This document shows, piece by piece, positions 7,745 to 23,584 of a stretch of 26,626 nt of DNA. The stretch spans positions 1 through 26,626 of the IMG/VR virus record IMGVR_UViG_3300013122_000017. One strand, given 5' to 3'. A program made the position numbers and the translations under genes. The DNA is from a virus. The notes under the pieces were generated by a model, which was not told the origin of the DNA, did no database searches, and worked only from the letters and a program-made list of their open reading frames with translations. The stretch's first letter is position 1. Each line of letters starts with the position of its first letter.

Positions 7745-8503
7745 ATGAAAATATGTATTGATGCCGGACACGGCGGGACGGATAGCGGAGCCGTTGGAAT
7801 CGGCGGAAGATTTGAAAAAACCGATGTATTGAGGTTTGCAAACGCTCTTGCGGCAAAATGTAAAGCCGCAGGGATTCAGGTTGTTCAGACGAGGACGGGC
7901 GATACATACCCGTCTTTGGAAGCGCGGGCGCAACTGGCGAACGCTACGGGATGCAATTACTTTGTATCTATACATCGTAATTTGTACTGGCTGGCAAGCG
8001 CAAACGGGATTGAATGCCTTGTGCCAAAAACAAAAGTAGTCACTGCGGCAATCGATGGCAGTAAACGTTTAGCGGCGGCGATACAAAAAAAGATGCTGGC
8101 GGTTGGCGGCAGGGATAGGACAAGCGAGGTAGGATATAAACTGCAAAATGCAACGGTGCTTTGCAAAACTGATATGCCAGCGACGACGGTTGAAATACTT
8201 TTTGTCACCAATGCGGCGGACAACCTGTTATTTGACATGAAGTTTGACCAGTACGTCCAGGCGGTATATGACGGGATTATTGAAGCAAGCGGGTTTAAAC
8301 CGGTTGTAAATGATCTGACTTATTCCGCAATAAAAGACACTTTATTCATCACGGGCGCGTCGGTGGTAAAACAAGGCGAAACTGTTGAATTGCTGGCGTA
8401 CCCGATGAAAACAGCAGATTTAAACAGTAAAACAGTAGCAAGGGCAAGAATTAACGGTAAAGACGGAATCATTATTTACGGTGATTTCAAGAAGGGAGAA
8501 TAA
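7745..8503 (+). CDS. Endolysin: N-acetylmuramoyl-L-alanine amidase (Amidase_3)
   Basis: The 252-residue protein starts at ATG 7745 behind AGGGGGT. The zinc-dependent Amidase_3 fold is clear: MKICIDAGHGGTDSGAVG gives His 9, FEK gives Glu 24, VSIHRN gives His 77 and TVEILFVTN gives the catalytic Glu 150. It cleaves the bond between muramic acid and L-alanine in peptidoglycan. Residues about 185-252 form a small extra C-terminal domain without a recognised wall-binding repeat. There is no signal peptide, so release depends on the holin gene just downstream. Confidence 0.92.
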   Translation: MKICIDAGHGGTDSGAVGIGGRFEKTDVLRFANALAAKCKAAGIQVVQTRTGDTYPSLEARAQLANATGCNYFVSIHRNLYWLASANGIECLVPKTKVVTAAIDGSKRLAAAIQKKMLAVGGRDRTSEVGYKLQNATVLCKTDMPATTVEILFVTNAADNLLFDMKFDQYVQAVYDGIIEASGFKPVVNDLTYSAIKDTLFITGASVVKQGETVELLAYPMKTADLNSKTVARARINGKDGIIIYGDFKKGE

Positions 8504-8506
8504 ACA

Positions 8507-8536
8507 ATGGCAAAGCTAAAGAAAGGAGTAAAATGA
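8507..8536 (+). CDS. Possible nine-residue leader peptide before the holin
   Basis: A mini-frame encodes MAKLKKGVK. It has its own GGGAG site eight bases upstream and ends at TGA 8534-8536, overlapping ATG 8533 as ATGA. Its final codons contain the holin ribosome site AAAGGAG. It could tune holin translation by coupling, or be chance; such a short frame cannot be proven from sequence. Confidence 0.25.
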   Translation: MAKLKKGVK

Positions 8537-8721
8537 TGGAGCAGAAAAAATACCAGTCTTGGGCTTTGTGGTTGGCTGTCGCCGCTTTGGTGGTTTTTGT
8601 TGTAAAAACTACTGCCGGTATTGACATTCAGCCCACAGCTGACGGACTTATGAACGTGCTGTTACCCGTTCTGATCGGGTTTGGCGTGGTAAACAATCCG
8701 AATGTAAAAAATAAGTTTTAA
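8536..8721 (+). CDS. Phage holin
   Basis: Two consecutive ATG codons lie at 8533 and 8536; the second has better spacing (seven bases) from AAAGGAG 8522-8528 and gives 61 residues. The protein has two hydrophobic segments, about residues 8-25 (WALWLAVAALVVFVVKT) and 38-52 (LMNVLLPVLIGFGVV), separated by a short polar loop, and ends VNNPNVKNKF. This is the layout of small Gram-positive phage holins, which open the membrane to release the amidase. The double Met start recalls the dual-start control of holin and antiholin in phage lambda, but here the products would differ by only one Met. Confidence 0.8.
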   Translation: MEQKKYQSWALWLAVAALVVFVVKTTAGIDIQPTADGLMNVLLPVLIGFGVVNNPNVKNKF

Positions 8722-8962: not shown

Positions 8963-8987
8963 GGGTTATCTTCTAACCCTCTTTTTT
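8963..8987 (+). terminator. Terminator ending the late (structural-lysis) transcript
   Basis: GGGTTA (8963-8968) pairs with TAACCC (8974-8979) around TCTTC, extendable by G-T/G-C pairs, and is followed by TTTTTT at 8982-8987. The stem overlaps the stop and last codons of the convergent transglutaminase-like gene. Confidence 0.75.
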
Positions 8988-9868
8988 ATTACCATTATAA
9001 CCGCTATCACAGCACCAACCACAATAAACCACCATACGGGGCTTGTAGAATCGCTAGGCGGCGTTTCTTCTATCGTTACGGATAAAACAGTAGGCTCCGG
9101 CGTTGGCTCCGGTGTAGGGGCTTGTACGGGCTCCATATACTTCTTTGATGTACAGGCGGGTAATGGTGGGTTTAAACTTTCGCTTGGATGGTTGAACCGC
9201 AGGAATGAATCGTCCTTTAGAAAATATACCATCGTTCCGGCCTTGATGGAAAGTAAATCGTTTGTCAAGTCGGCATAATACCAATTCCCATCTATTTCTA
9301 TGATATTCCATGCGTGGGCCTGTTCGGGCGTGCTAATTACCGTTAAAGCGCGTATATCAAGCTGATATAATATATATTGAAGTGAATCACTTATGCCGCC
9401 GCAAGTGGCTTTTCGTTCAACAAGGCCGCCAATAATAGAATGCTGATTTTCGCTATCAACGTATTGAATACCGTTCCCAAGATATTCATAAACAGTTTGT
9501 ACTTTTTCATAATCGCTTGCATTATCTGAAACCATATTTATAATTTCTTCGGATGTTTTTGCAAGTTCGGCGTTAAATCCTTCAATTTCTTCATCCGTAA
9601 ACCGCCCGTCATAATTCCATAGTTCGGGGGAATCATTAAACACATAAGATATTATTTCCCTTGCGCGTTCTTCGGTTATATCATAGTTTTCCGGATAAAC
9701 CCTACTGTGTTCGTTTGTCATCCTATCATAAACATGATCGTAAAATTCCAGTTCATTCTCCTCCAGCGTTGACCGCGCGTAATACTGATCTTTTGTGATC
9801 TGCGCATAAGCGGTTGAACCAAAAGACAAAATTGCGATACATATTATAATGGAAAGAAGTTTTTTCAT
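8966..9868 (-). CDS. Secreted, membrane-anchored transglutaminase-like protein
   Basis: Start ATG 9868 follows AGGTGAT; the product has 300 residues. Residues 1-22 are a signal peptide (MKKLLSIIICIAILSFGSTA, Ala-Tyr-Ala cleavage site). The transglutaminase-like core lies about residues 115-205 and keeps the triad: Cys 156 in KATCGGISDS, His 185 in QAHAWN and Asp 200 in WYYADLT. A Pro/Thr/Glu spacer (PTPEPTPEPT) precedes a transmembrane helix (about 279-294) and a KKRVRR stop-transfer tail, so the domain faces outside. Gene order and its own promoter on the opposite strand mark it as cargo, plausibly changing the lysogen surface. Protease, peptidase or cross-linking activity cannot be separated by sequence. 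Confidence 0.8.
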   Translation of the reverse strand: MKKLLSIIICIAILSFGSTAYAQITKDQYYARSTLEENELEFYDHVYDRMTNEHSRVYPENYDITEERAREIISYVFNDSPELWNYDGRFTDEEIEGFNAELAKTSEEIINMVSDNASDYEKVQTVYEYLGNGIQYVDSENQHSIIGGLVERKATCGGISDSLQYILYQLDIRALTVISTPEQAHAWNIIEIDGNWYYADLTNDLLSIKAGTMVYFLKDDSFLRFNHPSESLNPPLPACTSKKYMEPVQAPTPEPTPEPTVLSVTIEETPPSDSTSPVWWFIVVGAVIAVIMVIKKRVRR

Positions 9869-9884
9869 AATATCACCTGATTCT

Positions 9885-9912
9885 ATTATACTACGATGCA
9901 ACAAAAATGCAA
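9885..9912 (-). promoter_or_regulatory. Promoter of the transglutaminase-like gene
   Basis: On the minus strand TTGCAT (9912-9907) and TATAAT (9890-9885) are separated by 16 bases, a good sigma-70/sigma-A promoter 17 bases before the start codon. The -35 box lies within the left 20-bp arm-type repeat (9896-9915), so any protein bound there would block it. Confidence 0.7.
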
Positions 9913-9915
9913 CAT
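9896..9915 (+). repeat. Left arm-type repeat of putative attP
   Basis: ATGCAACAAAAATGCAACAT, itself a tandem pair of ATGCAAC spaced 11 bases apart (one helical turn). An identical 20-bp copy lies at 10127-10146, and the tRNA-end-like core lies between them. Paired direct repeats on both sides of a core are what tyrosine-integrase arm-binding domains recognise. Confidence 0.6.
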
Positions 9916-10043
9916 GACAGTTTAAAAATGATGTATATTCACTTCAATCGGTTGCAAGGCAAACCCTTTAAAAACATGATTCTAATGCGGTTATTACAAG
10001 CGTTTTCATATTTATAAACATTGGTTTCAAACGCCTTTACATA

Positions 10044-10067
10044 GTTCGAACCCTAGTTCCGCTGCCA
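10044..10067 (+). other. Putative attP core: 3' end of a tRNA
   Basis: The bases GTTCGAACCCTAG followed by TTCCGCTG and CCA match positions 53-76 of a tRNA. They give a T-loop TTCGAAC, the 3' half of the T-stem CCTAG, an acceptor strand TTCCGCT, discriminator G and CCA. The 5' half of the T-stem (CATAG) does not pair and no D- or anticodon arm is visible upstream. It is therefore a tRNA tail, not a tRNA gene. Temperate phages commonly carry such a tail so that integration rebuilds the host tRNA. The acceptor 5' strand in the host would be AGCGGAA. Discriminator G and A1-U72 would suit a tRNA-Trp, but this is a guess. Confidence 0.6.
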
Positions 10068-10070
10068 CCT

Positions 10071-10097
10071 AAAAAGCCTTTTAAATAGGGCTTTTTT
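10071..10097. terminator. Bidirectional terminator beside the tRNA tail and repressor stump
   Basis: AAAAAGCC (10071-10078) pairs with GGCTTTTT (10089-10096). The T-run serves + transcripts, and the A-run serves the minus-strand repressor gene whose stop is at 10097. A terminator three bases after CCA is what normally follows a tRNA gene, so it may be part of the segment shared with the host. Confidence 0.65.
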
Positions 10098-10282
10098 CAT
10101 ATATTTTTGTATTTTGAAACGCCGAAATGCAACAAAAATGCAACATCATATTTTCTTGATATATTTATCCAGGTTTCATATTTATGTATGGCAGCTTTCT
10201 GCACGCCTATTTTCTCGCCCAATTCCTCTTGGGACATTTCTTTCGCGTTTCGCAGATCGCGAATCCTTTTTCCAATATCCAT
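10097..10282 (-). pseudogene. Truncated CI-type repressor (HTH stump)
   Basis: ATG 10282 follows GGAGG and encodes MDIGKRIRDLRNAKEMSQEE followed by LGEKIGVQKAAIHKYET, the first three helices of an Xre/CI DNA-binding domain. After residue 37 the sequence (WINISRKYDVAFLLHFGVSK and on to a stop at residue 61) no longer matches helices 4-5. There is no C-terminal dimerisation or protease domain. The tail runs through the right arm-type repeat of the putative attP. The likely history is a deletion joining the attachment region to the repressor after codon 37. The promoter and ribosome site remain, so a 61-residue product could be made, but a working repressor is unlikely. Confidence 0.65.
10127..10146 (+). 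repeat. Right arm-type repeat of putative attP
   Basis: Exact copy of the 20-bp sequence at 9896-9915, in the same orientation and 231 bp away. It lies inside the out-of-family 3' tail of the repressor stump, supporting the idea that this stretch was non-coding attachment DNA before the deletion. Confidence 0.6.
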
Positions 10283-10342: not shown

Positions 10343-10357
10343 TATCTTGACAAGATA
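10343..10357. promoter_or_regulatory. Operator 1
   Basis: TATCTTGACAAGATA is a perfect 15-bp palindrome around a central A and covers the -35 box of the early promoter. It matches operators 2 and 3 in half-site and length. Confidence 0.7.
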
Positions 10358-10375
10358 CGTCGGATAATGTAAACT
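10347..10375 (+). promoter_or_regulatory. Early promoter (PR-like)
   Basis: TTGACA (10347-10352) and TAAACT (10370-10375) are separated by 17 bases. The -35 box lies within the palindrome TATCTTGACAAGATA, so a bound repressor would block it. It drives the Cro-like gene and the whole rightward early operon. Confidence 0.75.
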
Positions 10376-10380
10376 AAAAG

Positions 10381-10395
10381 TATCTCAAAAAGATA
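10381..10395. promoter_or_regulatory. Operator 2
   Basis: TATCTCAAAAAGATA has the same 15-bp layout with one half-site mismatch and flanking G/C that extend the symmetry (GTATCT and AGATAC). It lies between the early promoter and the Cro-like gene ribosome site. Confidence 0.65.
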
Positions 10396-10417: not shown

Positions 10418-10636
10418 ATGAACAAAAGCCTTTTTAGGTCTCATATGATTAAGCATAAAGACATACAGCGCACATTAGCGTCCGCAATGGGATTGAGTTT
10501 ATCGCGCTTAAATGCGAAAATCAACCAAAAAAACGGCGCAGAATTTAATCAACAGGAGATGGCTTTTATAAAAGAAAGGTATGGTTTATCCGCAAAGGAT
10601 ATGGATAATATTTTTTTTGCGAAACAAGTATCTTAA
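10418..10636 (+). CDS. Cro-like HTH regulator
   Basis: The protein has 72 residues and an AAAGGAG site eight bases before ATG 10418. The first half, SHMIKHKDIQRTLASAMGLS followed by LSRLNAKIN, fits an HTH of the Xre/Cro type, and the second half (FNQQEMAFIKERYGLSAKDM) fits the closing helices. It is the first gene of the rightward early operon, divergent from the repressor stump and bracketed by operators 1-2 and 3. In intact switches such proteins turn down both promoters and favour lytic growth. Confidence 0.75.
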   Translation: MNKSLFRSHMIKHKDIQRTLASAMGLSLSRLNAKINQKNGAEFNQQEMAFIKERYGLSAKDMDNIFFAKQVS

Positions 10637-10643
10637 AAAGATA
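10629..10643. promoter_or_regulatory. Operator 3
   Basis: TATCTTAAAAAGATA repeats the operator pattern and includes the stop codon of the Cro-like gene (TAA 10634-10636). It precedes the antirepressor ribosome site, so it could control or roadblock transcription into the antirepressor. Confidence 0.65.
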
Positions 10644-10661: not shown

Positions 10662-11372
10662 ATGAACAATTTAATACCAGTTGAACATAACAATCAAAGA
10701 GTATTGACAACAGCGCAAATCGCAGAAGGTTACGGAACGGACGCAAGAATAATATCTAATAATTTTAATCGCAACATTGAGAGATACGAAAGCGGAAAAC
10801 ATTATTATGCACTTTCAGGACAGGCCAAAACGGACCTTTGCAACCATCATCAAATTGATGACGGTTCAAAAAAGGCACAAACCGTTTATCTATGGACGGA
10901 AAAAGGCGCGTTGCTCCACGCTAAAAGTCTGAACACCGACAAGGCCTGGGAGGTATACGATCACCTTGTTGAAACATACTTTAGGGCGCGTGATATGTTC
11001 CATGTTCCTAAATCGTTACCGGAAGCCCTGCGGATGGCGGCTGAACTGGCGGAGAAGATCGAGCAGGACAAACCGAAAGTATTATTTGCCGAAACGTGCC
11101 AATCAAGCAAGGATAGCATTTTAATCAGGGAACTTGCAAAGGTATGCTCCAAACACGGTAAAACAATCGGGCAAAATAACCTTTTCCGCGAACTGCGTAA
11201 ATGGGGATTGCTCAACAGCCAAAACGAACCATATCAAAGGTACATCGAAAACGGATATTTTGAGATCATCGAACGGCCTATCCATACGAGCGACGGCGTT
11301 ATATTGAAATTTACCCCAAAGGTTTTACCCAAAGGCCAAAAATACATTATGAACAGGCTCCAAAATGGCTAA
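10662..11372 (+). CDS. Phage antirepressor (ORF6N + KilAC)
   Basis: ATG 10662 follows CGGAGG; the product has 236 residues. Residues about 4-95 are an ORF6N domain (NQRVLTTAQIAEGYGTDARI, then SNNFNRNIERYESGKHYYAL). Residues about 125-235 are a KilAC-type C-terminal domain (ILIRELAKVCSKHGKTIGQN, NLFRELRKWGLL, YFEIIERPI, TPKVLPKGQKYIMNRL). Proteins of this form bind or sequester CI-type repressors and push prophages to lytic growth. Here its usual target is truncated, so its present partner is unclear; the Xre protein at 23384-23584 is one candidate. Confidence 0.88.
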   Translation: MNNLIPVEHNNQRVLTTAQIAEGYGTDARIISNNFNRNIERYESGKHYYALSGQAKTDLCNHHQIDDGSKKAQTVYLWTEKGALLHAKSLNTDKAWEVYDHLVETYFRARDMFHVPKSLPEALRMAAELAEKIEQDKPKVLFAETCQSSKDSILIRELAKVCSKHGKTIGQNNLFRELRKWGLLNSQNEPYQRYIENGYFEIIERPIHTSDGVILKFTPKVLPKGQKYIMNRLQNG

Positions 11373-11562
11373 AACGGTTTACACCATAACCGACGTTGCA
11401 AAGGTTCTTCTTATATCAGACAGGACGGTATATGAGTACATCTATCGAGGCGAACTAAAGGCGGCGAAGATAGCCAATCAAAGGCGCATAAAGCCGGAAT
11501 GGGTAGATCAGTTTATAGAACGCAAGGCGGAGGGTGAATCATGGACACAAAAGAACAAATAA
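11365..11562 (+). CDS. Excisionase-like / MerR-type HTH protein
   Basis: The 65-residue protein carries an excisionase-family winged HTH (HTH_17): YTITDVAKVLLISDRTVYEY followed by IYRGELKAAKIANQRRIKPE. ATG 11365 overlaps the antirepressor stop by eight bases. Such proteins bend DNA at attachment sites as recombination directionality factors or act as small regulators. Since a putative attP lies 1.3 kb upstream and no integrase is visible, it may be an orphan excisionase or a plain regulator. Confidence 0.75.
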   Translation: MAKTVYTITDVAKVLLISDRTVYEYIYRGELKAAKIANQRRIKPEWVDQFIERKAEGESWTQKNK

Positions 11563-11888: not shown

Positions 11889-11898
11889 TAAACACTAA

Positions 11899-11944
11899 CC
11901 GAGCGCGGCGGTATATCCGCGCAGTAAATTATATGGAGGTAGAT
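11899..11944 (+). promoter_or_regulatory. Hairpin-leader cassette, copy A
   Basis: GCGCGG (11903-11908) pairs with CCGCGC (11917-11922) around CGGTATAT, followed by AGTAAATTATATGGAGGTAG and the start ATG 11945. Copies B (12173) and C (12479) share the same hairpin, and B shares the same ribosome site. It forms the 5' leader of the zinc-ribbon gene. Confidence 0.7.
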
Positions 11945-12172: not shown

Positions 12173-12220
12173 ACCGAGGCGCGGCGGTATATCCGCGCAG
12201 TAAATTATATGGAGGTAAAT
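12173..12220 (+). promoter_or_regulatory. Hairpin-leader cassette, copy B
   Basis: Same GCGCGG/CCGCGC hairpin (12179-12184 with 12193-12198) and the same AGTAAATTATATGGAGGTAA leader as copy A. It starts three bases after the zinc-ribbon stop and ends at ATG 12221. Confidence 0.7.
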
Positions 12221-12478
12221 ATGGATTACGAACCTAAAGGCACATGCAAACCAAAAGAAAATATTGACATGCTGACATCCGAAATAAGAGCCACACTAAA
12301 AGACGTTTTAGGCGACGTTGAATTGGTGAGAGCGTTTATTTTGGGACAACGAGTTGAGCAAGACTGCCTCGATAGAGTGTGCGTTAAGTCTCTTTGTAGC
12401 CGTCAAAAAGAACTATTGGAAACAGCCTGCCAGATACTCAGGGCACTAACAGAAATCAGAATTTCCTTAATCGGCTAA
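12221..12478 (+). CDS. Hypothetical helical protein
   Basis: The 85-residue protein starts at ATG 12221 (an earlier in-frame ATG at 12209 is part of the ribosome site). It begins MDYEPKGTCKPKENIDMLTS and is mainly helical. Cysteines occur in CLDRVCVKSLCSRQ and near the end, but without paired CxxC knuckles. No family is recognised. It is flanked on both sides by identical hairpin leaders. Confidence 0.55.
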   Translation: MDYEPKGTCKPKENIDMLTSEIRATLKDVLGDVELVRAFILGQRVEQDCLDRVCVKSLCSRQKELLETACQILRALTEIRISLIG

Positions 12479-12507
12479 CCGAAGCGCGGCGGTATATCCG
12501 CGCAGTA
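12479..12507 (+). promoter_or_regulatory. Hairpin-leader cassette, copy C
   Basis: Third copy of the GCGCGG (12484-12489) / CCGCGC (12498-12503) hairpin, beginning directly after the stop at 12478. After AGTA the usual AT-rich Shine-Dalgarno segment is replaced by the three-way-junction sequence at 12508. Confidence 0.7.
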
Positions 12508-12586: not shown

Positions 12587-13603
12587 ATGGCATATAAGAT
12601 TTTAAACAATGACTGGACGTGTAAAGATTATCAATTTAAAGACCCGAACAGGTTTCCAAACGAAATTTACTCAATGGATGAAAAACCCATTATATGCGAG
12701 CGTGGGTTTCATTATTGCGATAAGTTAGAAGATTGCTTTTCGTACTATGATTGCGTTCAATGGAATCACATTGTAGAGGTTGAACCGCTTGGTGATGTTG
12801 TAGATCACAGCGATGACAGCAAACACGCAACCAACAAAATAAAGATAGTGCGCGAAATACCGTTTGACAAAATAAAAAAAGGCGTTGCGTGGTCGGAAGG
12901 TGTTGCGCGGTCGAAAGGCGTTGCGGGGTCGGAAGGTGTTGTGGGGTCGAACGGCGTTGCGCGGTCGTACGGCGTTGCGTGGTCGGAAGGCGTTGCGTGG
13001 TCGGAAGGTGTTGCGCGGTCGAAAGGCGTTGCGGGGTCGGAAGGTGTTGTGGGGTCGAAAGGCGTTGCGGGGTCGTACGGCGTTGCGTGGTCGGAAGGTG
13101 TTGTGGGGTCGAAAGGCGTTGCGGAGTCGTACGGCGTTGCGCGGTCGAACGGTGTTGCGGGGTCGAACGGCGTTGCGCGGTCGGAAGGCGTTGCGGAGTC
13201 GTACGGCGTTGCGCGGTCGGAAGGCGTTGCGGGGTCGAAAGGCGTTGCGGGGTCGTTTGGCATACTAAATTCGTTTGGTGTAGATAGCGCGTTATTTCTT
13301 GCAAATCAAGTGCGCCAGTATAGTATTTTTGGCAAAATCGTTTCACGGGATCGTTTTCAAGAAATCAATAAAAACTTATATGCCGCTTTGGATGGATGGC
13401 GTCCAACTTTTAACAATTTAAAATCGCTTTACATTCAATCGGGATGCGATTGGAAAAAAACGCCAATCACAAACGCATCTGAAATTCAAAAAGAGGAAGC
13501 GTGGCGCGATATGCCAAAAGACGCGATAGACTATGTGCGATCGCTTCCGGAATATGACGCAAAAATGTTTTTTGAAATAACTGGAATTTGGGAGGACAAA
13601 TAA
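12587..13603 (+). CDS. DUF7666-like protein with 21 GVAxSx hexapeptide repeats
   Basis: ATG 12587 follows CGGAGG; the product has 338 residues. Residues 1-98 look like the DUF7666 type of phage domain: a CERGFHYCDKLEDCFSYYD motif and TNKIKIVREI ending. Residues 99-224 are 21 tandem repeats of Gly-Val-(Ala/Val)-x-Ser-x plus a degenerate GILNSF unit. Position 4 is only Trp, Arg, Gly or Glu, and position 6 is only Glu, Lys, Asn, Tyr or Phe. Residues about 230-338 are a mixed helical domain with Trp-rich segments. A period of six with alternating small residues suggests a beta-solenoid rod displaying positions 4 and 6 on its faces. Function unknown; it is in the early region, so probably not a virion protein. 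Confidence 0.7.
   Translation: MAYKILNNDWTCKDYQFKDPNRFPNEIYSMDEKPIICERGFHYCDKLEDCFSYYDCVQWNHIVEVEPLGDVVDHSDDSKHATNKIKIVREIPFDKIKKGVAWSEGVARSKGVAGSEGVVGSNGVARSYGVAWSEGVAWSEGVARSKGVAGSEGVVGSKGVAGSYGVAWSEGVVGSKGVAESYGVARSNGVAGSNGVARSEGVAESYGVARSEGVAGSKGVAGSFGILNSFGVDSALFLANQVRQYSIFGKIVSRDRFQEINKNLYAALDGWRPTFNNLKSLYIQSGCDWKKTPITNASEIQKEEAWRDMPKDAIDYVRSLPEYDAKMFFEITGIWEDK
12881..13258 (+). repeat. 18-bp tandem repeat array (21 units)
   Basis: The unit is GGY GTT GYG NRG TCG NNN in frame. GTT and TCG are identical in all 21 units, while codon 4 (tgg, cgg, ggg, gag) and codon 6 (gaa, aaa, aac, tac, ttt) vary. Units 1-4 and 7-10 (12881-12952 and 12989-13060) are identical except for the last codon, showing block duplication. 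Confidence 0.92.
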
Positions 13604-19459: not shown

Positions 19460-19812
19460 AGTTTACAATACCCATACCGCCCCGAACTAAAAAGAACAGC
19501 CAGCAGATCACGAAGAACGGAATCATTCAATCCGCAGCATATAGGCAATACGAAAAAGACTGCGCCTGGTTTATGCCAAAGTGTGAACCGATAGGGTACA
19601 AGATAAACCTGAAAGCCGTGTTCTACATCGACGCAGACAGAAAAAGTGATTTAGTGGGGTATATTCAAGCAATACAAGACATTCTAGTAAAATACGGGGT
19701 GCTGGAGGACGACAACAGGCGAATAGTGCATACGGTTGATGGGAGTTGCGTTGAGGTGGACCGGGAGAACCCAAGAACCGAAATCGAAATAACGGATAAA
19801 TTTGATTGGTAG
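19456..19812 (+). CDS. rusA: RusA-type Holliday junction resolvase
   Basis: The protein has 118 residues and overlaps the initiator gene as ATGA. RusA features are clear: MKFTIPIPPRTKKNSQQI at the start, FYIDADRKSDLVGYIQAIQD, YGVLEDDNRRIVH and a closing PRTEIEI strand. It resolves branched DNA made by recombination and replication. Asp 65 and Asp 85/86 are present. The residue expected at the second catalytic position (Asp in the RusA motif Asp-Leu-Asp-Asn) is Val 67, and the Asn is Gly 68. I recall similar DLV forms in Gram-positive phages, so this may be a subfamily trait rather than a dead enzyme. Confidence 0.88.
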   Translation: MKFTIPIPPRTKKNSQQITKNGIIQSAAYRQYEKDCAWFMPKCEPIGYKINLKAVFYIDADRKSDLVGYIQAIQDILVKYGVLEDDNRRIVHTVDGSCVEVDRENPRTEIEITDKFDW

Positions 19813-19915
19813 GAGGTAAAGAAAGATGGATGAATTAAAGCAACAAGGCACACATTCAACAAAACATGGTTTTTAGACCGCGCATCCGCAGAGGCCGTGA
19901 GAAAGGAGCGGGAAG
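19813..19915 (+). pseudogene. Collapsed remnant of a duplicated gene cassette
   Basis: Bases 19813-19842 are identical to 20192-20221 (ribosome site and first codons of the Lar-like gene). Bases 19871-19920 match 20646-20695 at 44 of 50 positions (end of the coiled-coil gene and ribosome site of the repeat gene). The frame from ATG 19826 stops after 16 codons. The segment is what remains of a second copy of the neighbouring two-gene cassette after internal deletion. Its right end now supplies the ribosome site for the gene at 19916. Confidence 0.7.
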
Positions 19916-20191
19916 ATGAATAACGTCACTATAACAAGAATACCAATTCCGTCTGAAATTTTAAAAGGTGAATGGTACGGGATTGTCTATGCAATAGACA
20001 CCGAAAGCGAATCATTTGAAGCGCATAACGCGGAAGTAGAGGACGTAATAGAAAAACTAAAAGAGGATTACGACAATAATGATCACTATACAGTATCACT
20101 TCGAGAGGTAAAACGACAACTGGTATATTCTGATGAATGTATACAACGATACTGTACGTTGGTGCAATTTAGGGTTAGGGACTCATATTAA
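19916..20191 (+). CDS. Hypothetical early protein
   Basis: The 91-residue protein starts at ATG 19916 behind the duplicated AAAGGAGCGGGA leader. It alternates strands and acidic helices (HNAEVEDVIEKLKEDYDNND, then YTVSLREVKRQLVY) with no Cys motif or membrane segment. No family is recognised. It lies between the cassette remnant and the intact Lar-like cassette. Confidence 0.6.
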   Translation: MNNVTITRIPIPSEILKGEWYGIVYAIDTESESFEAHNAEVEDVIEKLKEDYDNNDHYTVSLREVKRQLVYSDECIQRYCTLVQFRVRDSY

Positions 20192-20204
20192 GAGGTAAAG
20201 AAAG

Positions 20205-20453
20205 ATGGATGAATTAAAGCATTGCCCGTTTTGCGGAGGAGAAGCAAAGTTATACGAAACCGATCACGGCAGCATAACAAGCGCAATGATTGAGTGTAAA
20301 GGATGTCGTGCAACGATTTGTGATATATGTAGATTTAAGGATTATTGCGATAAAAAAATAGTTCTGCAAGCAAATTATGAAAAATCAGAACATAACATTA
20401 ACGCCTGTCAGTATTGGATGCCACTACCGCAACCGCCGAAAGGAGAAAAGTAA
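20205..20453 (+). CDS. Lar-like zinc-ribbon protein (possible restriction alleviation)
   Basis: The 82-residue protein begins MDELKHCPFCGGEAKLYETD, the standard opening of the Lar (restriction alleviation) zinc-ribbon family. A second CxxC (CKGC) and further CDIC/CRFKDYC cysteines follow, and the end NACQYWMPLP replaces the usual Asn-Ala-Trp-Asn-x-Arg closure. Lar of Rac prophage reduces type I restriction; most phage relatives are untested. The start region is the parent of the fragment at 19826. The stop overlaps the next start as TAATG. Confidence 0.65.
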   Translation: MDELKHCPFCGGEAKLYETDHGSITSAMIECKGCRATICDICRFKDYCDKKIVLQANYEKSEHNINACQYWMPLPQPPKGEK

Positions 20454-20710
20454 TGACAGACCAAATATCGCAGTTCCTACAACAGCTTGATGATTGTAAC
20501 GCAGAAATTGCAATACTTAAAGAACAAAACGCCTCTCTTCTTGCCGAACTTGAACGGTATAGGAAATCGGAGAGAGAAATACGGGTTTATGTTAAATACA
20601 ATAGCAAAGATTCTACTTGGTTTATAAACGAACATATACTTTGGATTTTAGACCGCGCCTCCGCAGAGGTCGCAAGAAAGGAGCATGAAGATGAAAATAG
20701 TAACGATTGA
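20453..20710 (+). CDS. Coiled-coil small protein, hypothetical
   Basis: ATG 20453 lies in a TAATG overlap behind AAAGGAG, giving 85 residues. Residues 1-45 are a heptad-like coiled coil (FLQQLDDCNAEIAILKEQNA, then SLLAELERYRKSE). The second half has IRVYVKYNSKDSTWFIN and a charged end. Its last 20 codons contain the duplicated leader that also precedes 19916. Function unknown. Confidence 0.6.
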   Translation: MTDQISQFLQQLDDCNAEIAILKEQNASLLAELERYRKSEREIRVYVKYNSKDSTWFINEHILWILDRASAEVARKEHEDENSND

Positions 20711-21212
20711 ACAGATATTAAACTTTAATCTATGCTATAAAAAAGACAAAATTTTACAGCTTGCAAACGGCAGGGTGGAATGCAACGCATACGATGTGCT
20801 CGCGCTTGATATTCCGGCAAAAGATAAGCTATGGCTCGTTTTACGTGAAGAATTTATAGATGCGCCCATACTGCATGAATTTGCGTGCAGATGCGCGGAA
20901 GAAGCACTTAAACTTATTGACAATCCCGACTCGCGAAGTTTAAATGCCATCGTAATAAAAAGAAAATGGATCAAAGGCGATGCGACTGACGAAGAACTGT
21001 ATGCGGCTATGTCTGCGGCTTGGTATGCGGCTATGTCTGCGGCTATGTATGCGGCTATGTCTGCGGCTATGTATGCGGCTATGTATGCGGCTATGTATGT
21101 GGCTATGTATGCGGCTATGTATGCGGCTATGTATGCGGCTAGGGATGCGGCTAGGGAAAATCAAATAAAAATTTTAGATGAATTGTTGAGGGAGCAGAAA
21201 GATGGAGATTGA
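20691..21212 (+). CDS. Imm-5-like putative immunity-family protein with Ala-rich repeats
   Basis: ATG 20691 is chosen over ATG 20685: it has seven-base spacing from AAAGGAG, and the homologous leader at 19916 starts at the same place. The 173-residue protein has an N-terminal helical domain (FACRCAEEALKLIDNPDSRS, then LNAIVIKRKWIKGDATDEEL) resembling the putative immunity (Imm-5-like) family found in many phages. Thirteen four-residue repeats of (Tyr/Ser)-Ala-Ala-(Met/Trp/Arg) occupy residues 104-155, ending in REQKDGD. The repeats would form one long amphipathic Ala helix with an aromatic stripe. The name of the family comes from toxin-immunity contexts; here the role is unknown. Confidence 0.6.
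   Translation: MKIVTIEQILNFNLCYKKDKILQLANGRVECNAYDVLALDIPAKDKLWLVLREEFIDAPILHEFACRCAEEALKLIDNPDSRSLNAIVIKRKWIKGDATDEELYAAMSAAWYAAMSAAMYAAMSAAMYAAMYAAMYVAMYAAMYAAMYAARDAARENQIKILDELLREQKDGD
21000..21155 (+). repeat. 12-bp tandem repeat array (13 units)
   Basis: The unit tatgcggctatg encodes YAAM. GCG GCT is constant in 12 of 13 units (one gtg), while the first codon is tat, tct or gat and the last is atg, tgg or agg. Low synonymous divergence points to recent expansion. Confidence 0.9.
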
Positions 21213-21771: not shown

Positions 21772-22152
21772 ATGTCAAAAAGAGATTTAACACAAGCAGA
21801 AGAAAAACGGTTTAGAGACCTGTATCACAATACAACCAACATAGAATTGGGCGAGATGTTCAATATGCACGTAAATACGGTAAGCAGGTTAGGTCACAAG
21901 TTGGGATTAAAAAAAGACCAGTCGCACTTGCGTGGCGTAAACGGATTCAACTGCCGTTATGACAGAGAAAAAACAGATATGCTTTGTTGGGAATGCAGGG
22001 GCGCAACCAACCCGCCGGACCATAAATGTTTGTGGGCGTCGAGGTTTGAAATGCCGAAAAGCGTGAAAACAAAAGAACGGACATACTACAAAGATAACGA
22101 AAGATGCAAAAGAACGTATATCGTAGCGTGTCCGAATTTTGAAAGGGGATAA
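21772..22152 (+). CDS. HTH protein with Cys-rich C-terminus
   Basis: ATG 21772 is behind AAGGAGGCGCG; an earlier in-frame ATG lies inside the previous gene without a ribosome site. In the 126-residue protein, residues about 8-45 form an HTH (EEKRFRDLYHNTTNIELGEM, then FNMHVNTVSRLGHKLG) of the sigma-region-4 or transposase-like type. The rest is rich in Cys and basic residues (LCWECRGATNPPDHKC and IVACPNF), suggesting a zinc site. It may be a DNA-binding regulator of later genes. Confidence 0.6.
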   Translation: MSKRDLTQAEEKRFRDLYHNTTNIELGEMFNMHVNTVSRLGHKLGLKKDQSHLRGVNGFNCRYDREKTDMLCWECRGATNPPDHKCLWASRFEMPKSVKTKERTYYKDNERCKRTYIVACPNFERG

Positions 22153-23383: not shown

Positions 23384-23584
23384 TCATTTCTCTACCTCCC
23401 ATAACCTTTCCGGCTCTACATCGAGAGCCTTTGCCAATGCCAGGACTATATGCGCCCTAGCGTTTTTGAGATCGCGGCGATTTTGCTCGTACATTTCTAT
23501 TGTACGCTCGCCGATCCCGCTTTTTTTTGCAAGGGCGGCGCGGCTCATACCGGCCGCCTTGCGTAGCTGTTTGACGTTGTTCAT
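23384..23584 (-). CDS. Xre-family HTH regulator
   Basis: The 66-residue protein is one complete five-helix Xre/HTH_3 domain: MNNVKQLRKAAGMSRAALAK, KSGIGERTIEMYEQNRRDLK, ALAKALDVEPERLWE. It has no oligomerisation domain. ATG 23584 overlaps the previous stop as ATGA (23581-23584). Single-domain Xre proteins repress or activate phage promoters. Because the CI-type gene at 10097 is truncated, this may be the only intact repressor-type protein in the window. Confidence 0.82.
   Translation of the reverse strand: MNNVKQLRKAAGMSRAALAKKSGIGERTIEMYEQNRRDLKNARAHIVLALAKALDVEPERLWEVEK

Follow-up and report, generated by a model that had tools for sequence, protein, structure and literature searches.

Attachment sites (attP) of temperate phages with a core derived from the 3' end of a tRNA-like gene are described in Cluster K1 mycobacteriophages such as CrimD, in which the core corresponds to the tmRNA 3' end and is flanked by two pairs of 11-bp arm-type repeats (PMC3203893). 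The same group of viruses also illustrates how the capacity for lysogeny is lost: mycobacteriophage TM4 is a lytic derivative of a temperate parent that has lost the integrase gene (int) and attP, has kept a predicted xis and is thought to have lost its repressor, and D29, when compared to L5, has lost its repressor through a 3.6-kbp deletion (PMC3203893). The locus described here resembles these systems in part. On balance, we consider it probable that positions 9896-10146 represent the remnant of an attP in a temperate-type phage of Clostridia from which a deletion removed int and most of the cI repressor gene, and that the phage is a lytic derivative.

The genome fragment and its gene order

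The analyzed stretch of DNA (hereinafter the window) is the entire 26,626-bp IMG/VR record IMGVR_UViG_3300013122_000017. As it contains no recognisable portal or capsid genes, the record is a genome fragment; it starts within the tail module and ends just past TerL. From left to right, the tail module is followed by genes for a glycosyltransferase, a tail fibre, an endolysin, a holin and a transglutaminase-like protein, and then by the putative attP region and a repressor-like open reading frame (ORF) on the minus strand; to the right of the latter are located the cro-like, antirepressor and excisionase-like genes and the replication genes, with the terminase at the right end (Table 1). A search of GenBank phages with the window using megablast yielded no match. 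A 4,435-bp contig (L003), of which the first 2,999 bases were compared, corresponds to the window from position 21895 onward and differs from it in one base.

Several features of the fragment are worth recording in their own right. The transglutaminase-core protein has a signal-peptide-like start and no relatives in IMG/VR; its gene is likely to be a lysogenic-conversion gene. Three near-identical G+C-rich 30-bp repeats (11897-11926, 12173-12202 and 12478-12507) contain a short hairpin, GCGCGG...CCGCGC, and two of them directly precede the ribosome-binding sites of small genes. Another repeat, of 33 bp (TAGGAGGTAAAGAAAGATGGATGAATTAAAGCA; 19810-19842 and 20189-20221, 97% identical, with starts 379 bp apart), covers a ribosome-binding site together with the start codon. 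A 338-amino-acid protein (12587-13603) contains a long run of GVAxSxGVA-type repeats, encoded by DNA that is itself highly repetitive (12879-13239), and the protein encoded at 20685-21212 carries a repeat tract of the MYAAMSAAMYAA type close to its C-terminus.

Table 1. Features of the putative attP region and of the adjacent lysis and lysogeny genes in the window
Feature	Position	Strand	Description
Endolysin	7745-8503		
Holin	8533-8721		
Transglutaminase-like gene	8966-9868	-	Between holin and left arm
Left arm-type repeat (putative P arm)	9896-9915	+	Exact 20-bp copy of ATGCAACAAAAATGCAACAT; tandem ATGCAAC pair, 11-bp period
Putative attP core	10044-10067	+	3' end of tRNA-Gln(CUG): last T-stem base, T-loop, acceptor stem, discriminator G, CCA
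Rho-independent terminator	10071-10096	+	10-pair stem and T-rich tail, 3 bases past CCA
61-aa ORF	10097-10282	-	Start of a cI/Xre repressor (36-37 codons) joined to a 24-codon tail through the right arm
Right arm-type repeat (putative P' arm)	10127-10146	+	Identical to left arm (ATGCAACAAAAATGCAACAT); site of the integrase 3' end in relatives
Operator-like palindromes TATCT(T/C)-N3-AGATA, two copies	10343-10395 (at 10343 and 10381)	.	cro promoter; third copy at 10629-10643
cro-like gene	10418-10636	+	Resembles the gene beside L164 cI; both products end in FFAKQVS (translations compared by eye)
ORF6N/KilAC antirepressor	10662-11372	+	
Excisionase-like HTH_17 gene	11365-11562	+	PHROG excisionase families; TIGR01764 above cut-off

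A core derived from the 3' end of tRNA-Gln

A sequence-only reading of this region had proposed a tRNA 3' end, including CCA, as the core, and this assignment is borne out by comparison with host genes. A relaxed scan of GTDB r220 for any tRNA with the same acceptor stem, discriminator base and CCA returned at least 118 loci, mostly from Clostridia, which ARAGORN identified as tRNA-Gln(CTG). Among these, at least 29 Clostridia tRNA-Gln(CTG) loci match 22 of the 23 bases of positions 10045-10067 (TTCGAACCCTAGTTCCGCTGCCA), and nearly all of them differ from the window solely at T-loop base 60, which is T in the hosts and C in the window; we estimate the probability that the window would match a given 23-mer at 22/23 positions by chance at about 5e-8. 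The same reading had predicted, from base pairing alone, a host tRNA with the 5' end AGCGGAA, which is indeed how the matching genes begin. It had also noted a terminator 3 bases behind the CCA, where a terminator-like stem-loop is found; similar terminators are located behind the host tRNA-Gln genes. Its expectation of a host tRNA whose 3' end is identical to the core held as far as the 22/23 matches go and failed for the complete sequence: the exact 23-mer is absent from the 84,980 GTDB species (r220).

Exact core patterns of 25, 23 and 22 bases had no match in IMG/VR or GTDB r220, and the exact core is likewise absent from 396 genomes of the order that includes the Christensenella metagenome-assembled genome (MAG) discussed below. 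Identity to the host tRNA gene begins at 10044; given that the bases preceding this position do not form a T-stem, the window does not contain a whole tRNA. A search of the window core against Rfam produced no tRNA match, as expected for 24 bases. In 34 host genomes carrying the tRNA-Gln, only distant relatives of TerL were detected.

Arm repeats and sites that carry an integrase

The two exact 20-bp copies of a tandem ATGCAAC pair, spaced 11 bp from start to start, were confirmed as originally described. Their origin by chance is excluded: the window has two occurrences of ATGCAAC-N4-ATGCAAC, and none arose in 100 shuffles that preserved the dinucleotide composition; furthermore, 30 simulated windows contained no repeated 18-mers. 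Relative to the T-loop TTC, the arm motifs are located at -149, -138, +82 and +93. Within IMG/VR, the exact 20-bp arm was found nowhere except in the window.

The closest parallel comes from an integrated element (L225/L228) in the MAG of Christensenella sp. UBA1431 (G056). Behind a complete tRNA-Gln(CTG) gene, this MAG has a terminator, then tandem ACCCTTTA arms (+82/+94), and an integrase gene that is split over two frames and whose last codons overlap the arm. A second contig of this MAG contains a bare tRNA-Gln 3' end, without the tRNA gene, and tandem arms at -136/-124, so that the two sites resemble the attL and attR of a single element assembled on separate contigs. This element and the window share the target gene, the layout of core, arms and terminator, and the distance to the right arm; they differ in the arm sequence and in the position of the left arm, which is 13 bp closer to the core in the MAG, and the element has no detectable gene in common with the phage. 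In another MAG (L160), an integrase gene lies 95 bp behind the same tRNA-Gln(CTG). A few kb from the attR-like tRNA-Gln 3' end of the Christensenella MAG, the same contig encodes Cas1, Cas2 and Cas10/Csm1 of a type III CRISPR-Cas system (L230, contig C15, 1470-6554).

The arm motif itself also occurs at such sites. A scan of IMG/VR for ATGCAAC-W4-ATGCAAC identified 39 contigs, only three of which (L236, L242 and L259, from G473-G475) contain two copies, two of the three with identical site sequence. In all three, a PF00589 integrase directly adjoins the copies, and the sequence between the copies is GGGTTCAAATCCCTCCACTCCGACCA or GGGTTCAATTCCCCCCATCTCCACCA, which we take to be tRNA or tmRNA 3' ends. 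These contigs apparently come from phages of other hosts than that of the window. Since the motif copies, an integrase and a tRNA/tmRNA-like 3' end are combined in these contigs, the arm code of the window surrounds the same type of core in the presence of an integrase, which suggests that phages with little else in common repeatedly use one arm motif and one core plan. Contig L232, whose sample number is adjacent to that of L003, was weighed as a possible sister phage and rejected: its arm match is isolated inside a coding sequence and is not accompanied by an integrase.

The missing integrase and the gene order in relatives

Neither a tyrosine (PF00589) nor a serine (PF00239) recombinase was detected in the 26,626-bp record, in agreement with the sequence-only reading, which had seen no integrase gene and had offered no explanation for its absence. 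The expected position of this gene is indicated by related phages. In G010 (L164), with a TerL 60% identical to that of the window, lysis-type genes are followed by the arms with a tRNA 3' half between them, int, a gene for a 403-amino-acid protein, a 106-amino-acid cI and cro. The tandem arms are 221 bp apart, the right one being overlapped by the integrase 3' end, and the tRNA 3' half is recognised by Rfam as tRNA (30.3 bits); its strand relative to int is opposite to that in the window. In L212, the order is cI (253 amino acids, with an S24 peptidase), a gene for a 149-amino-acid protein, int (342 amino acids), a repeat and the endolysin; here a 9-bp repeat overlaps the int stop codon, and its partner copy lies 162 bp further on. 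Thus, int is located between the arm and a full-length cI in both phages, whereas the window has just about 20 bases between the right arm and cI codon 37. Neither an intact sister phage nor a close parent was found in IMG/VR.

Taken together, the spacings in the Christensenella MAG, the sites in L236, L242 and L259, and the gene order in the relatives support the proposed core-and-arms plan and, as far as sequence comparison can tell, the assignment of 9896-10146 as an attP. The locus possesses a core that corresponds to a tRNA-gene 3' end (22/23) and arms on both sides at characteristic distances; the adjoining integrase is what it lacks.

A truncated repressor among retained lysogeny genes

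The HTH_3 match in the 61-amino-acid ORF covers positions 1-30 of 55, compared to 1-55 in the cI proteins of L164 and L212. Over residues 1-36, the window ORF shares 69% identity with the cI of L212; beyond them there is no similarity. The repressor gene of the window is accordingly truncated relative to both, the kind of damage to a lysogeny gene that marks deletion derivatives of temperate phages. The remainder of the ORF reads in frame as WINISRKYD, then the arm-encoded VAFLLH, then FGVSKYKNI and a stop codon. The ORF is likely to be a cI'-'int deletion fusion, in which the 24-residue tail probably is the end of the lost integrase, given that in L164, L212 and L225 the 3' end of int reaches into the arm or directly adjoins it. 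An alignment test revealed no significant similarity of the tail to known integrase C-termini; the tail resembles helix 5 of one cI, that of L164 (p 0.004-0.0075), but not the cI proteins taken together (p 0.19-0.28), and the statistics assign it to neither int nor cI. On this basis, a small internal deletion in cI combined with a separate loss of int is a possible alternative.

Other components of the lysogeny region have been retained. The three TATCT(T/C)-N3-AGATA palindromes around cro are likely operators of the lost repressor, and similar palindromic sites are present upstream of cro in L164. The excisionase-like gene persists even though the record contains no integrase. A second small Xre-type gene (23384-23584) lies outside the repressor position.

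A probable relic attP and its alternatives

As an attP, the region would be bound by a tyrosine integrase at both tandem ATGCAAC arm sites, and the integrase would mediate recombination between the core and its counterpart at the 3' end of the host tRNA-Gln(CUG) gene. With the tRNA end and terminator supplied by the phage, the lysogen would regain a functional tRNA gene, whose transcription would stop at that terminator. A single deletion extending from about codon 37 of cI to the 3' end of int, suggested by the point at which the repressor beside the right arm is cut, would have removed int and at least the last two thirds of cI and left behind the attP, the fusion ORF, the operators, cro, the antirepressor and an orphan excisionase. 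We infer this event from distant relatives because IMG/VR yielded no intact sister. The phage probably descends from one capable of dormancy and is now unable to integrate alone; it could neither integrate nor establish repression by itself and would be lytic unless an integrase acts in trans.

The retention of the attP and the incompleteness of the record invite other explanations. The integrase of a functional attP might be encoded in the missing part of the genome, between terminase and tail genes, given that the record lacks the portal and capsid region and has an excisionase-like gene; this is unlikely, however, because int adjoins the arms in all comparators and the neighboring repressor gene breaks off exactly at the place expected for int. 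Equally improbable in our judgment is a misassembly that joined two places of a living phage with int and a full cI. The record is a single metagenome contig, and the near-identical L003 covers only its terminase end, but the fused ORF stays open over the junction, which does not coincide with a long repeat: the only nearby repeats of at least 18 bp are the two arms, both of which are kept.

We assign still less weight to the possibility that the attP is maintained because other elements, with the ATGCAAC-N4-ATGCAAC arms and the tRNA-Gln(CUG) target in common, provide integrases that integrate the phage in trans. The two perfect arm copies and the intact core are compatible with such use, as are the identical arm motifs in different phages and the integrases of other elements that use the tRNA-Gln(CTG) 3' end; nevertheless, no helper was found, and with the repressor truncated as well, lysogeny would be unstable. 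Finally, the absence of an integrase from the record might mean that a chance tRNA-like segment lies between repeats with another role, for example in regulation. With the spacing, arm motif and core type all matching integrase-bearing sites, this is the least credible of the alternatives and is nearly refuted. The relic attP, created by deletion, accordingly is the explanation that we favor.

Comparison with known systems

The window phage likely is a natural case in which a temperate phage infecting uncultured Clostridia lost integration and repression together, with the attachment site left as a fossil; this site points to tRNA-Gln(CUG) as the probable target gene and hence to the likely host class. 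The CrimD attP and the window share a tRNA-like 3'-end core, paired flanking arms and a terminator between the core and one arm. In CrimD, however, the integrase gene is located next to the attP, and P3/P4 are in inverted orientation, whereas the window has directly repeated arms and lacks int. Loss of the integrase by deletion is already known from TM4, and the window would add another case. TM4 and the window phage have in common the deletion of the integrase, probable in the window phage, the retention of the excisionase and the loss of the repressor, presumed in the case of TM4; in TM4, attP is gone and the losses of int and of the presumed repressor are separate, whereas in the window attP stays and one deletion could account for both. 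With D29, the window phage shares a repressor deletion in a temperate lineage, the difference being that the 3.6-kbp deletion of D29 is described for the repressor, whereas the window phage is devoid of int as well.
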